Positions 8,409 through 28,598 of a stretch of DNA of 64,000 bases are shown piece after piece. This stretch comes from Maritimibacter sp. DP1N21-5. GTDB taxonomy: Bacteria > Pseudomonadota > Alphaproteobacteria > Rhodobacterales > Rhodobacteraceae. Positions within the stretch are counted from its first letter, which is position 1. Each line of letters opens with the position of its first letter. Below the pieces are notes generated by a model that made no database searches, was not told where the DNA came from, and worked only from the letters and a program-made list of their open reading frames with translations. A program made the translations under genes and the position numbers. The stretch is from NCBI RefSeq assembly GCF_019218295.1, contig NZ_JAHUZF010000006.1, positions 1,674,001 to 1,738,000 of the forward strand, read 5' to 3'.

Positions 8409-8924
8409 ATGAAGACCCTGACCAAACTCGCTGTTGCGGGAACCATCTCTGCGAGCCTTTTCGCGACGGCCGCCAGTGCCGAGACCATTGCCGAAATCGC
8501 TGCGGGGAACGAGGACTTCTCGACCCTGATGGCCGCCGTCGAGGCCGCCGGACTGGGCGAGACGCTGGCGGGCGAAGGGCCGTTCACCGTCTTCGCACCG
8601 ACCAATGCGGCCTTCGAGGCGCTGCCTGAAGGCACTGTCGAGAGCCTGCTCGCCCCCGACATGAAAGAAGACCTGACCAACATCCTGCTCTACCACGTCG
8701 TCGGGGCCAATGTGCCCTCGGGCGACATCGCCGAAGGCACTGCCGCGGTCGAGACCGTGGCCGGACCCGCAGTCTGTGTCACCAAGGGCGCCGACGGGGT
8801 GAGCCTGACCGATGGCGCCGGCAACACGGCGATGGTCGTGACCGCCGACATCGCAGCCGACAACGGCGTGATCCATGTCATCGACACGGTGATCATGCCG
8901 GGCGAAAGCGGCGCGAGCTGCTGA
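8409..8924 (+). CDS. exported fasciclin-domain protein
   Basis: A 171-residue protein with a clear signal peptide (MKTLTKLAVAGTISASLFATAASA). A single fasciclin (FAS1) domain follows: FTVFAPTNAAFEALPEG is the H1 box, LLYHVVG comes next, and NGVIHVIDTVIMP is the H2 box. Two cysteines (AVCVTKG and the C-terminal GASC) may form a disulfide in the periplasm. FAS1 domains mediate adhesion or interactions; the partner here is unknown. The ATG at 8409 follows CTGGAGGAA. It stands alone, 129 bases after fdsD and before the sRNA pair. Confidence 0.9.
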   Translation: MKTLTKLAVAGTISASLFATAASAETIAEIAAGNEDFSTLMAAVEAAGLGETLAGEGPFTVFAPTNAAFEALPEGTVESLLAPDMKEDLTNILLYHVVGANVPSGDIAEGTAAVETVAGPAVCVTKGADGVSLTDGAGNTAMVVTADIAADNGVIHVIDTVIMPGESGASC

Positions 8925-8976
8925 GCGGAAACGGGCGAACGTCGCGCAGGGTCGGGAAAGTTTTTTCGGACCAGAT

Positions 8977-9001
8977 GGAACCGAACCGGCCTTCCGCGCG
9001 T
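8977..9001 (+). promoter_or_regulatory. putative alternative-sigma promoter of sRNA copy 1
   Basis: GGAACCG begins 34 bases before the conserved RNA sequence and is followed, 17 bases after GGAAC, by CGT inside GCGT at 8998-9001. GGAAC-N17-CGT resembles promoters of the EcfG-type ECF sigma factors of Alphaproteobacteria. The same element stands at the identical distance from the second copy, although most bases between the two boxes differ. The sigma factor involved is not identified. Confidence 0.5.
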
Positions 9002-9010
9002 CTCATAATC

Positions 9011-9088
9011 GTCCCATGACTGTCCCGGCCGGGGTTTCCCTACCCTCCCCGGCCATGACCCGGAGCTTCCCGGCTCCGGGTCTTTCTT
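9011..9088 (+). ncRNA. candidate small RNA, tandem copy 1
   Basis: About 78 bases. After GTCCCATGACTGTCCC comes a perfect 8-bp stem (GGCCGGGG 9027-9034 with CCCCGGCC 9047-9054) carrying a 12-base pyrimidine-rich loop (TTTCCCTACCCT). A 10-bp terminator stem follows (9057-9066 with 9073-9082) with a T-rich tail at 9083-9088. The first 45 bases recur with one change at 9197, and the terminator stems differ yet stay paired, which supports conserved RNA structure. The C/U-rich loop could pair with Shine-Dalgarno sequences, as in CcsR/AbcR-like alphaproteobacterial sRNAs; membership of a known family is not established. Confidence 0.65.
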
Positions 9089-9162
9089 CGTGCACTTCCT
9101 TGCTCACCTGCATCCCCGAAAATGCCTCTCGCCTAGGCACGCAAAAATTTCTGCGCGCCGAG

Positions 9163-9187
9163 GGAACCGGATGCGCTCGCCGTGCGT
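9163..9187 (+). promoter_or_regulatory. putative alternative-sigma promoter of sRNA copy 2
   Basis: GGAACCG at 9163-9169 and GCGT at 9184-9187 have the same spacing, and the same 34-base distance to the RNA start, as in front of copy 1. Conservation of just these two boxes between otherwise different upstream sequences is the main evidence for a promoter. Confidence 0.5.
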
Positions 9188-9196
9188 AGTTCAAAT

Positions 9197-9276
9197 GTCC
9201 CATGACTGTCCCGGCCGGGGTTCCCCTACCCTCCCCGGCCACCAGACCCGAAGCCTGTCCCGGCTTCGGGTCTTTT
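9197..9276 (+). ncRNA. candidate small RNA, tandem copy 2
   Basis: About 80 bases, near-identical to copy 1 over its first 45 bases. The 8-bp stem (9213-9220 with 9233-9240) carries the loop TTCCCCTACCCT. A 12-bp terminator stem (AGACCCGAAGCC at 9244-9255 with 9262-9273) has loop TGTCCC and ends in TTTT. The terminator differs from copy 1 by paired changes that keep the stem intact. It lies 108 bases after copy 1 and is convergent with the asparaginase gene that ends at 9302. Confidence 0.65.
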
Positions 9277-9301: not shown

Positions 9302-10162
9302 TCAGCCCGGCGTATCCAGCCAAAGCCGCACGAAGGCCGCCGCGGGCGTTTCGCGGCCGCCATTCTCGACCCCGGCATCCCAGAGCGGCGCTCCGGCAGC
9401 ATAGCTTCCGGGAACGAGCCCGCCCGCCTCGCATTGGCTGACCGCGCGGAGGCGAAGGCCACGGGCCGTGGCCTCGGACAGGGCGGCCAGAAGGTCAGGG
9501 TCATGCATGACCGTGCCCGCACCAAACACGCGCAGCACGGCAGCATCGAGCGTGCCAAGGGCCGCGCGCACCATCGCCGCCGGAAGACCGGGGGTCAGGG
9601 CGAGTACGGCCACGCGCCGGTCGGGATCGAAGCGGCGGCGTGAGGGCACGGGAAGCGGATCTTGCGGCACGGCGCGGAAGGCATCGTCCCCAACGGTGTC
9701 ATGCTTGACGAGGGCCCCGGCATCGAGGATGCGGCGTGCGAAGGCGCAATTCACCCCGGTCCAGTTCGGATCGAGCAACGTGACCACGGCAAGGTTCAGG
9801 TTCGCCCTCGCGCCCTCACCCGCCCCAAGTGGCGCCATCGCCCCGCACAGCATGACGCGCGCCCCGGTCCCGGCCAGCGTCTGCGACAGCGCCGCGCCGG
9901 TGTAGCTCATCGTGTCGGTGCCATGAGTTACGAGAACAGAGTGATCGGGATGGGCCGCGATCAGGTCAAGCATGGCGTTCCAATGCCCGGGTCCGACATC
10001 GGCACTGTCCAGAAGCGGATCGAAGACATGGATGGCAAGTGTCACATGCTCGGGGAGCATCGCCGCGACGGCGGCCTCCACCCGCCCGGCCTCGGGCACC
10101 AGACCCTTCGGCCCGGGAACCATGCCGATTGTGCCACCTGTGTGGATGAGGAGAAACTTCAT
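9302..10162 (-). CDS. asparaginase (type I/II family)
   Basis: A 286-residue L-asparaginase-family enzyme that hydrolyses asparagine to aspartate and ammonia. The first catalytic motif HTGGTIG (T11) is near the N-terminus, and the second, VTHGTDTMSYTG (T79, T82, D83), follows. No signal peptide is seen, so it is probably cytoplasmic. The reading frame extends to 10225, but MKFLLIHTGGTIG from 10162 is the natural start. At 286 residues it is a little shorter than typical bacterial enzymes (about 320-340). It is a single gene, divergent from the AI-2E permease. Confidence 0.88.
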   Translation of the reverse strand: MKFLLIHTGGTIGMVPGPKGLVPEAGRVEAAVAAMLPEHVTLAIHVFDPLLDSADVGPGHWNAMLDLIAAHPDHSVLVTHGTDTMSYTGAALSQTLAGTGARVMLCGAMAPLGAGEGARANLNLAVVTLLDPNWTGVNCAFARRILDAGALVKHDTVGDDAFRAVPQDPLPVPSRRRFDPDRRVAVLALTPGLPAAMVRAALGTLDAAVLRVFGAGTVMHDPDLLAALSEATARGLRLRAVSQCEAGGLVPGSYAAGAPLWDAGVENGGRETPAAAFVRLWLDTPG

Positions 10163-10263
10163 GTGATCGGTATGCGGCGAGTTCCCGCGCCGTTCAACCT
10201 TGATCCCCCGCCCGCCTTCCGCCAAGACTGCACCGAAGCCAATGCCCCGGTGAAGGACCCGCC

Positions 10264-11349
10264 ATGACCCTGTCCGTCAGCACGCAAGCGAAATACTGGG
10301 GGATCGCCGCCCTCGTATTCTTTGCTCTGCTCTATCTCCTTGGCGACGTGATCCTGCCTTTCCTGCTCGGGGGCGCCATCGCCTATTTCCTCGATCCGAT
10401 CGCGGACAAGCTCGAAGCCATCGGGTTCAGGCGGATCTGGGCGACCGTGACCATCACGATAATCGGGCTCCTCGTGTTCACCCTGATGATCCTGCTCATC
10501 GTGCCGACGCTGGTGCAGCAGACCACCGAGCTTTTCGACGCGGTTCCACAGATCGCCACGAGCCTGCGCGAATGGCTCGTGGCCCAGTTCCCCGACGTGG
10601 TGAACGAGGAAAGCGTGCTCCGGCAGTCGCTCGATGGTGTCGCCGCGACCATTCAGGAACGGGGTGGCGAGCTTCTCAACGCGATCCTCACCTCGGCGCA
10701 GAGCGTAATCTCCGTCGTCGTCTTACTGGTCGTCGTTCCCGTGGTGACCTTCTATCTCCTGTGGGACTGGGACCGGATGGTGGCCGCCATCGACGATCTT
10801 CTGCCCCGCGATCACGCACCCACCATCCGCTATCTGGCGAGCGAGGTGGACAAGACGCTGGCGAGCTTCATCCGGGGACAGGGCACGGTCTGCCTGATCC
10901 TGGGCACCTTCTACGCCGTCGCGCTCATGATTGCGGGACTGTCCTTCGGCCTGATCGTGGGCGCCATCGCGGGGGCCCTGACCTTCATTCCCTATATCGG
11001 AGCGCTGGTGGGCGGGGCGCTCGCCATCGGGCTCGCCTTCTTCCAGTTCTGGGGGGAATGGTGGCACATCGCCATCGTCGCGGGCATCTTCGTGATCGGC
11101 CAGTTCCTCGAAGGCAACTTCCTCACCCCGAACCTCGTGGGCTCCTCGGTCGGGCTGCATCCGGTCTGGCTCATCTTCGCCCTGTCAGCCTTCGGCACGC
11201 TCTTCGGCTTCGTCGGGATGCTGGTCGCGGTGCCGGTCGCAGCGGCCCTTGGCGTGGTGCTGCGGTATTTCATCGGGCGCTACAAGGAGGGGCGGCTCTA
11301 CAAGGGCCTGTCCGAGGGTGCGCTCCTGCCGGAAGACACGGTCGAGTAA
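10264..11349 (+). CDS. AI-2E family transporter (PerM-like)
   Basis: A 361-residue inner-membrane protein with about seven to eight hydrophobic segments and a soluble loop in the middle (about residues 90-150). The motifs LPFLLGGAIAYFLDPIAD at the start and EGNFLTPNLVGSSVGLHPVW near residue 280 are those of the AI-2E/PerM family. Members have been linked to autoinducer-2 export or Na+/H+ exchange; the substrate here is unknown. The stop overlaps the hdaA start by one base, an arrangement that couples their translation. Confidence 0.9.
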   Translation: MTLSVSTQAKYWGIAALVFFALLYLLGDVILPFLLGGAIAYFLDPIADKLEAIGFRRIWATVTITIIGLLVFTLMILLIVPTLVQQTTELFDAVPQIATSLREWLVAQFPDVVNEESVLRQSLDGVAATIQERGGELLNAILTSAQSVISVVVLLVVVPVVTFYLLWDWDRMVAAIDDLLPRDHAPTIRYLASEVDKTLASFIRGQGTVCLILGTFYAVALMIAGLSFGLIVGAIAGALTFIPYIGALVGGALAIGLAFFQFWGEWWHIAIVAGIFVIGQFLEGNFLTPNLVGSSVGLHPVWLIFALSAFGTLFGFVGMLVAVPVAAALGVVLRYFIGRYKEGRLYKGLSEGALLPEDTVE

Positions 11350-28204: not shown

Positions 28205-28598
28205 GGGCGCGCGGACGGCCTGTAAGCCGGATTCTGTTCCCCGGGGTCTCCCCCGGTTCGACGATCATTCCTCTGGTGACACCGTTGCCGGTGCCCTCTA
28301 GCTGCCAACCCGGACCTCTGGACCAAGGCGGTCCTGCCCACGCGGGGCGCGAGGTCCCTATTCGGCGTTGCTCCCGGTGGGGCTTGCCATGCCGGTCCTG
28401 TTGCCAGTCCCGCGGTGGGCTCTTACCCCACCGTTTCACCCTTACTCCGGTGATCCGGAGCGGTCTGTTCTCTGTGGCGCTTTCCCTTGGGTTTCCCCAG
28501 CCGGGCGTTACCCGGCACCGTTGCCTTGTGGAGTCCGGACTTTCCTCGACGCACCTTCGCTGAGCGGATGCGCCGCGACCGTCCGGCCATCCGCGCGA
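28205..28598 (-). ncRNA. rnpB: RNase P RNA (class A)
   Basis: The catalytic RNA of RNase P, which matures tRNA 5' ends. On the minus strand the universal block GAGGAAAGTCCGGACTCC lies near 28530-28548, followed by GGGTGAAACGG, and the 3' signature ACAGAATCCGGCTTACAGGC is at about 28216-28236. The terminal helix P1 can be drawn between about 28586-28597 and 28208-28220 (GCGCGGAUGGCC with GGCCGUCCGCGC). The ends are approximate. At about 394 bases it has normal alphaproteobacterial size. Reading frames drawn across this region are not genes. Confidence 0.96.

Follow-up and report, generated by a model that had tools for sequence, protein, structure and literature searches.

Do two strongly folded, near-identical repeats in the genome of Maritimibacter sp. 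DP1N21-5 represent genuine small regulatory RNAs, and if so, which system switches them on and what might they act upon? The repeats lie within a 64,000-nucleotide stretch of DNA (the window), where an earlier note had placed a tandem pair of structured sRNAs at 9011..9276; the coordinates were right, and folding confirmed both types of hairpin. The two sRNA genes, 70–80 nt in length, are arranged head to tail on the forward strand (9011-9090 and 9197-9276) as direct repeats with a pitch of 186 nt, and the 45 nt starting at G9011 (GTCCC...GGCCA) recur from G9197 with the one change the note had reported, a T/C difference. Each copy is laid out as a 15–16 nt 5′ end, a first hairpin (hairpin 1) and a terminator hairpin of 11–12 bp with a U-rich tail, which is short in both window copies. 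The 5′ segment GTCCCATGACTGTCCC spans 9011..9026 in copy 1, where G9011 is the predicted transcription start, and 9197..9212 in copy 2. It is followed by hairpin 1 (9027..9054 and 9213..9240), in both copies an 8-bp GGCCGGGG/CCCCGGCC GC stem with a 12-nt C/U-rich loop, and by an intrinsic terminator (9057..9090, with the stem at 9057-9082 and then the U-rich tail, and 9244..9276, with the stem at 9244-9273). The folding energies of the two copies (–41.3 and –42.6 kcal/mol) correspond to z-scores of –6.05 and –6.10, with none of 200 dinucleotide shuffles as stable, and a terminator scan of 2.4 kb returned three intrinsic terminators, both sRNA terminators among them, compared with 1.5 expected in shuffles. 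The GC stem, 12-base loop and Rho-independent terminator ascribed to each copy are thus confirmed. Within the 64-kb window the loop-stem core is found at these two copies only, allowing up to three mismatches, and its mean count in 100 shuffles was 0.

The sRNA is present in all eight Maritimibacter genomes examined, with 12 copies in total: one each in G001, G002, G005, G006 and G007, two each in the genome of DP1N21-5 itself (G000) and in G004, and three in M. alkaliphilus HTCC2654 (G003). Besides the own genome, the carriers of the 16-mer together with the hairpins are M. alkaliphilus HTCC2654, M. harenae, M. dapengensis and four MAGs, and in the own genome a search for the 16-mer that allowed one mismatch found nothing beyond the two copies. 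All 12 copies fold far below their shuffles (z from –4.66 to –7.43, the former for a copy folded with a shortened terminator).

The gene neighbourhood is retained as well. Just upstream in the window lies a gene for a fasciclin-domain protein (8409..8924, +, PF02469), which also adjoins the sRNA in the seven other genomes (tblastn; in G004 only the gene end is seen, at a contig edge). Downstream follow a convergent asparaginase-family gene (9302..10225, –, PF00710) and a gene for an AI-2E/PerM family transporter (10264..11349, +, PF01594); a PerM-like gene lies downstream of the sRNA in 7/7 other genomes (tblastn), with the asparaginase gene in between in the window and in five of the seven, and missing there in G005 and G007. 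The first and second sRNA copies of M. alkaliphilus are separated by a small ORF that looks SnoaL/NTF2-like by eye. Copy 1 starts 87 nt past the fasciclin stop codon and in the same direction, and this proximity, together with the gene association kept in seven other genomes, would suit a reading in which the repeats are no more than a 3′ UTR processed from the fasciclin message, or else terminators with no regulatory role. However, invariant promoter elements stand at a fixed distance before each copy, and copies 2 and 3 of M. alkaliphilus, situated 600 and 774 nt past copy 1, retain both promoter and 5′ end. Because a separate, conserved ECF-type promoter precedes every copy, an origin in the fasciclin 3′ UTR alone, an objection that the earlier note had raised against itself, is unlikely, and we give this reading as a whole very little weight.

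These promoters stand out clearly in the 12-copy alignment. The –35 element GGAACC (8977..8982 before copy 1 and 9163..9168 before copy 2, both +) and the –10 element GCGT (8998..9001 and 9184..9187, both +) are invariant in 6/6 and 4/4 columns, respectively (mean pairwise identity of 1.0 for each), compared with 0.44 in the spacer between them and 0.41 in the 9–10 nt that follow. The start of GGAACC is exactly 34 nt from the G of GTCCC in 12/12 copies, and conservation begins abruptly at the +1 predicted from the promoter. Upstream of the copy 1 promoter a T6 tract (8961..8966, +), absent at copy 2, is a possible UP-like element in view of a wider enrichment of T-runs described below. A promoter scan of the 2.4 kb around the sRNAs found no sigma-70-like promoter. 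Judged from sequence, the locus holds two complete-looking transcription units, each with promoter, start, body and terminator.

Within the RNA, conservation is concentrated at the 5′ end. The 16-nt 5′ end (GUCCCAUGACUGUCCC as RNA) is identical in 12/12 copies, a mean pairwise identity of 1.0; the two arms of hairpin 1 reach 0.83 and 0.89, the loop between them 0.58 and the arms of the terminator 0.56–0.57. The earlier note had regarded the loop as the key element, but the loop motif CCCTACCCT occurs in 4/12 copies, restricted to the own genome and G004, while complete invariance is confined to the first 16 nt of the RNA; what all 12 loops keep is a CCC run. That note had overlooked how poorly the loop sequence is conserved, along with the promoters and the invariance of the 5′ end.

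An invariant stretch of this kind invites two readings other than that of an RNA recognition segment. It could be the beginning of a short leaderless peptide gene, ATG ACT GTC CCN GCC (MTVPA), with its AUG 5 nt from the predicted 5′ end; the base between the 16-nt stretch and hairpin 1, which varies freely (G, A, T or C), would then be the free third position of a fourfold-degenerate proline codon. Against this, the other fourfold sites (ACT and GTC) and the 5 nt preceding the ATG are invariant in 12/12 copies, the frames diverge in length and sequence past about the sixth codon (by eye), the two window frames have no Pfam match and both helices covary as RNA, so that a peptide gene here seems most improbable. 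Slightly less remote, but still improbable, is a stretch kept as DNA, with GTCCC-N6-GTCCC at +1 to +16 bound by a repressor or a response regulator, while the RNA would act via its C-rich loop. The pitch of 11 bp between the two GTCCC, one helical turn, and their position directly after the –10 element would suit such a site; yet the 6 bp between the repeats are equally invariant, the loops vary, and 16 identical bases that include the exact predicted 5′ end are better explained by a recognition segment of the RNA.

The two helices are maintained in a different manner from the 5′ end, by compensating changes. The alignment of the 12 copies was fitted to the model structure and is biased towards it; with this bias, standard pairs fill 99.6% of 231 alignment cells, compared with 79.2% in shuffles, and 16 of the 20 pairs show changes on both sides (5/8 in hairpin 1 and 11/12 in the terminator), compared with a shuffle mean of 7.3 and with 0/500 shuffles reaching 16. 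The weakest of the covariation measures, further pair types, gave 23 versus 18.3 in shuffles, a value reached by 7/500, and shifting the pairing partner by 1–3 columns lowers pairing to 34–56%. In hairpin 1 there are two clear G-C to A-U swaps (G004a and G006); the other changes there come from the G007 copy, which is shifted by one base, plus one U-G pair. The earlier proposal that the terminator stems differ yet stay paired, indicating selection on RNA structure, is therefore borne out, and extends to both helices in eight genomes.

Promoters and RNA bodies do not group the copies in the same way. The promoter spacers of the first own copy, G004a and G003c are 0.57–0.70 identical to one another, while those of the two own copies reach 0.46; the RNA bodies of the two own copies are 0.91 identical and those of G003a, b and c 0.82–0.94, compared with 0.62 between the first own copy and G003c. 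The promoters thus look orthologous across species, whereas the bodies look homogenised inside each genome, an effect clearest for the own genome and for G003; the two bodies of G004 are less alike (0.73). Promoters alike across species combined with bodies alike within a genome suggest gene conversion between the tandem copies, a lead that comes from pairwise identities of short segments.

The form of the promoter points to a particular class of sigma factor. The sRNA promoters read GGAAC-N17-CGT[A/C] in 11 of the 12 copies and have N16 in one (G003c), with the –10 element being CGTA in seven, CGTC in five and CGTT in none. The EcfG1 motif of Rhizobium etli is described as GGAAC-N16-CGTT, and the EcfG-driven ReC64 RNA of the same species as starting where that motif predicts (PMC3892343). 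The Maritimibacter sRNAs likewise have an EcfG-type promoter at the right distance from their start, with a reservation on the fourth base of the –10 element (A or C, not T). A PhyR-NepR-EcfG system is also described for R. sphaeroides (PMC5830050), and NepR is present in 8/8 of the Maritimibacter genomes, with two loci in the own genome (C3:87013 and C6:193083) and one in each of the other seven. Each own nepR locus includes a PhyR-like gene in divergent orientation, together with an ECF sigma gene (NF009198 above cut-off at both) that we take to be EcfG by its position; PhyR domains were confirmed at the C3 locus, the one locus covered by that test. The intergenic regions of seven of the nine nepR loci contain 11 GGAAC-N-CGT promoters, often as facing pairs, nine of which are GGAAC-N16-CGTT; a pattern search of the remaining two loci, those of G003 and G005, found no GGAAC-N-CGT promoter.

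A further feature is shared by the two sets of promoters. A T-run of at least five within 35 nt upstream of GGAACC is seen at 8/12 sRNA promoters (it is missing at the other four) and at 9/11 of the nepR/phyR promoters listed, compared with 0/64 other GGAACC sites (background loci, nearly all from the genus). The resulting signature, T5-N5-16-GGAACC-N15/16-CGT, matched 34 rows or 20 distinct sites in the eight genus genomes, of which eight are sRNA promoters, eight are nepR/phyR promoters and four lie elsewhere, and the reversed control pattern gave seven raw matches in eight genomes. That 16 of the 20 sites belong to sRNAs or nepR/phyR ties the sRNAs, through promoters that appear to be EcfG-type, to the general stress response without proving the connection. 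Two of the four sites elsewhere precede plausible stress genes, named by eye: one, a T-tract/GGAAC-N16-CGTT site (G000:C6:318010, –), lies before a heme-oxygenase-like ORF, a candidate member of the stress regulon, and the other, in G006, before a small hydrophilic ORF and then a host-attachment-like ORF.

As the –10 element of the sRNAs is never CGTT, in contrast to 9/11 at nepR/phyR, another ECF sigma factor or a weak use of EcfG is possible. In this case the sRNAs would be real and yet stand outside the general stress response, being driven by an ECF sigma factor other than EcfG, or by EcfG through crosstalk only, and the spacer, one base longer in 11/12 sRNA promoters compared with 10/11 of the nepR/phyR promoters listed, would fit such a distinction. 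However, both promoters of the second own nepR locus (near C6:193083) have CGTA, and one of the two also shares the N17 spacing, while the C3 locus has CGTT, and the T-tract signature is largely confined to the sRNAs and nepR/phyR. We therefore consider control by a different sigma factor unlikely, though less so than the peptide and DNA-site readings, and retain EcfG as the preferred regulator.

If these are regulatory RNAs of the general stress response, are they a known family? A covariance model of promoter plus RNA (R1), built from three copies only, scores the 12 genus copies at 63.9–139.3 bits; two further genus matches, at 25.7 and 22.9 bits on the opposite strand of terminators, were excluded from the 12. 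In 93 genomes from outside the genus, searched with stricter filters that may lose weak homologues, the best among the matches listed reached 32.8 bits (G018) and 30.8 bits (G049), and the 17 matches listed lack promoter and 5′ end by eye, resembling terminators or chance. At G049:C16:138945-139040 a terminator hairpin from another genus is much like that of copy 2 and comes without promoter or 5′ end, probably by chance. A pattern search of 394 family genomes for GTCCCATGACTGTCCC with up to one mismatch gave 19 carriers other than Maritimibacter, and inspection by eye showed this hairpin and promoter in none of them. The exact 16-mer occurs in 59 stretches of the species genome collection and has the structure in the seven Maritimibacter ones; one non-Maritimibacter stretch folds as stably, but with other hairpins and no such promoter. 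The plasmid collection contained no match to the sRNA. The idea of a new or lineage-specific pair has thus held up, with no convincing homologue outside the genus in the 93 genomes searched by model or the 394 searched by pattern.

Comparison with Rfam, which the earlier note had recommended, gave no sRNA family at threshold in the window or at the loci of the seven other genomes. AbcR, to which the note had likened the pair, is represented in Rfam and was among the sRNA families that did not reach the gathering score in either set. The best sub-threshold match was sX13 (RF02232) at copy 2, with 28.8 bits versus a gathering score of 50 (E 0.0011). The sole Rfam match above threshold in the window is a bacterial class A RNase P RNA (28207-28594, –, 287 bits).

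The other likeness suggested in the note was to CcsR. The CcsR or cuckoo RNAs carry the motif CCUCCUCCC in their hairpin loops and occur as tandem siblings with C/U-rich loops; tandem siblings, C/U-rich loops and the same bacterial family are what the Maritimibacter pair has in common with them. CcsR1-4 of Rhodobacter sphaeroides are described as following a DUF1127 gene, sharing an RpoHI/RpoHII promoter and being excised by RNase E (PMC10253847). In Maritimibacter, by contrast with that description, there is no DUF1127 gene, the upstream gene encodes a fasciclin protein, each copy has an ECF-type promoter and a terminator of its own, and CCUCCUCCC is absent from 12/12 copies, so that membership in CcsR is not supported by the features compared.

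Closer parallels are found in the mode of control and in the C-rich recognition elements of other sRNAs. GsrN of Caulobacter is controlled by sigma-T/EcfG, and EcfG sRNA candidates are described in rhizobia too (PMC5869019). It resembles the Maritimibacter sRNA, as far as its description goes, in having an EcfG-type promoter, a small structured RNA and, if the C-rich 5′ end in Maritimibacter has such a role, a C-rich recognition sequence near the 5′ end that is thought to pair with G-rich sites in mRNAs (PMC5869019). Compared by description, GsrN differs in presenting six cytosines in a 5′ loop, where the Maritimibacter sRNA has a linear 5′ end plus a loop. In the published account BLASTn matches to GsrN are limited to Caulobacteraceae, candidates in other families being assigned by position, and GsrN homologues typically lie near the GSR locus, with C. 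crescentus as an exception (PMC5869019); the Maritimibacter sRNAs lie away from the GSR loci (C6:1683011 and C6:1683197, versus C3:87013 and C6:193083). The LhrC1-5 RNAs of Listeria are described as sibling copies under the two-component system LisRK, and UCCC in unpaired stretches of LhrC and of staphylococcal sRNAs as binding Shine-Dalgarno sequences (PMC4132741). Near-identical copies, a probable stress control and UCCC predicted to be mostly unpaired are shared with LhrC, a likeness of description and not of sequence, while the host group is unrelated and the control by LisRK is different. For RybB, a 5′ 16-nt target-recognition domain is established and targets are known; ECF sigma control and the use of the 5′ end as target-recognition segment, both only proposed for the Maritimibacter pair, are its points of resemblance. 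RybB is a sigma-E-dependent sRNA of enterobacteria (PMC1804206), and thus has another sigma factor and another host group.

The anatomy of the 5′ end suggests how the sRNAs may act. It contains two UCCC which, with the C-rich loop, form a C-rich element near the 5′ end that is mostly predicted to be unpaired. The mean predicted probability of the 5′ 16 nt being unpaired is 0.68–0.70 in 12/12 copies; a weak 3-bp GUC/GAC hairpin is predicted within it, the bases of which are mostly paired (minimum unpaired probability 0.15–0.18). Its reverse complement, GGGACAGUCAUGGGAC, is built like a translation start (GGGA, a short spacer and AUG). Antisense action of the 5′ end on start regions, read from this anatomy, has in our view about an even chance of being right. 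The masking of Shine-Dalgarno sequences that the earlier note had assigned to the loops remains plausible, but mainly through the 5′ end and not the loop, given the restriction of CCCTACCCT to 4/12 copies.

A sigma factor alone only activates, and the EcfG general stress response is a central stress switch of Alphaproteobacteria. Under stress, PhyR would free the sigma factor EcfG from NepR, and EcfG would read the GGAACC/GCGT promoters to yield RNAs of about 72–80 nt with their first base at or close to G9011 and G9197. Their 5′ end GUCCCAUGACUGUCCC, which is mostly unpaired and includes two UCCC and a CAU, would then pair with the start regions of mRNAs that read GGGA(CA)...AUG and keep the ribosome off, giving an activating sigma factor a repressing arm. 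In such a scheme the C-rich loop would serve as a secondary contact site, the terminator hairpin would protect the 3′ end of the sRNA, and two or three copies would provide a higher dose, with slightly different promoters driving one RNA. Taken together, we think that the locus probably encodes two sibling trans-acting, EcfG-controlled sRNAs of the general stress response, the 5′ ends of which would pair with translation starts.

The searches for targets were, as a whole, weak or negative. The exact complement of the sRNA 5′ end that we used as target word, GGGACAGTCATG, has 20 sites in the eight genus genomes, 12 of which are the sRNAs themselves. By a criterion of an ORF of at least 100 codons preceded by an in-frame stop no more than 40 codons away, six of the eight other sites lie at start codons, compared with 5/20 contexts read (of 46 sites) for 31 control words in the genus; the criterion errs in both directions, as the G007 site is probably no true start and a true-looking start in G004 (lysozyme-like by eye) fails. 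Outside the genus the word has 20 sites in 53 family genomes and seven in 40 class genomes, with 7/17 of the family contexts read and 0/5 of the class contexts at start codons. This placement at starts in the family indicates that it is largely a property of the word, so the 6/8 in Maritimibacter is no evidence for targets. The number of sites in the genus, eight versus 46 over the 31 other words of class GGGASWSWSATG, none of which exceeds five, is suggestive at most. The sites are also denser in the genus than in the 53 family genomes. However, the GC-richer neighbour at one mismatch, GGGACAGCCATG, is at least as common as the target word, with 16 sites, eight of which are a single conserved site at rpmF and eight of which remain.

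Conservation of individual targets gave a similar picture. There are 134 sites with up to one mismatch, of which 12 are the sRNAs, 16 with a changed ATG were excluded and 106 contexts were read, with orthologs assigned by blastp among ATG-frame ORFs of at least 50 codons; pairing over 6–8 nt would be missed by this approach. Across these 106 contexts no gene keeps a sense-direction site in three or more of the eight genus genomes, the maximum being two. The two-genome ortholog pairs, named by eye, are an NhaP-like antiporter (G003/G002), a lysozyme-like lipoprotein (G000/G004), and Lon-like (G001/G003), NrdR-like (G006/G007), DedA-like (G004/G000), SRPBCC-like (G003/G001) and unnamed (G005/G004) genes. 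The sole site found in 8/8 genomes is that at rpmF (start MAVPQNK, by eye), which was rejected as a target because it lies on the antisense strand. In the mRNA sense the start of rpmF (ribosomal protein L32, by eye) reads CATGGCTGTCCC in 8/8 genomes, one base off the CATGACTGTCCC of the sRNA; this resemblance is likely a coincidence, although the sRNA could be mimicking rpmF.

EcfG-controlled sRNAs as a class are already known from Caulobacter and rhizobia (PMC5869019, PMC3892343). Among the open-access papers searched, none mentions Maritimibacter together with an sRNA, and the titles and opening abstract lines of papers on the general stress response, EcfG and sRNAs indicated no such sRNA in Rhodobacteraceae. 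The pair, unnamed so far, appears to be confined to one genus, as far as searched. More tentatively, and with somewhat more doubt than confidence, we propose a genus-specific sRNA family in which the invariant first 16 nt would act as a general anti-translation-start element, complementary to a Shine-Dalgarno-like GGGA and to AUG, and would form a repressing arm of the general stress response in Rhodobacteraceae, and in which tandem copies would keep distinct promoters while their bodies are homogenised. In a genus that can be cultured, so compact an sRNA, with 16 nt at its end that never vary, would make the genes turned down by the stress response accessible to experiment, along with the way in which sibling sRNAs remain similar when their promoters diverge.
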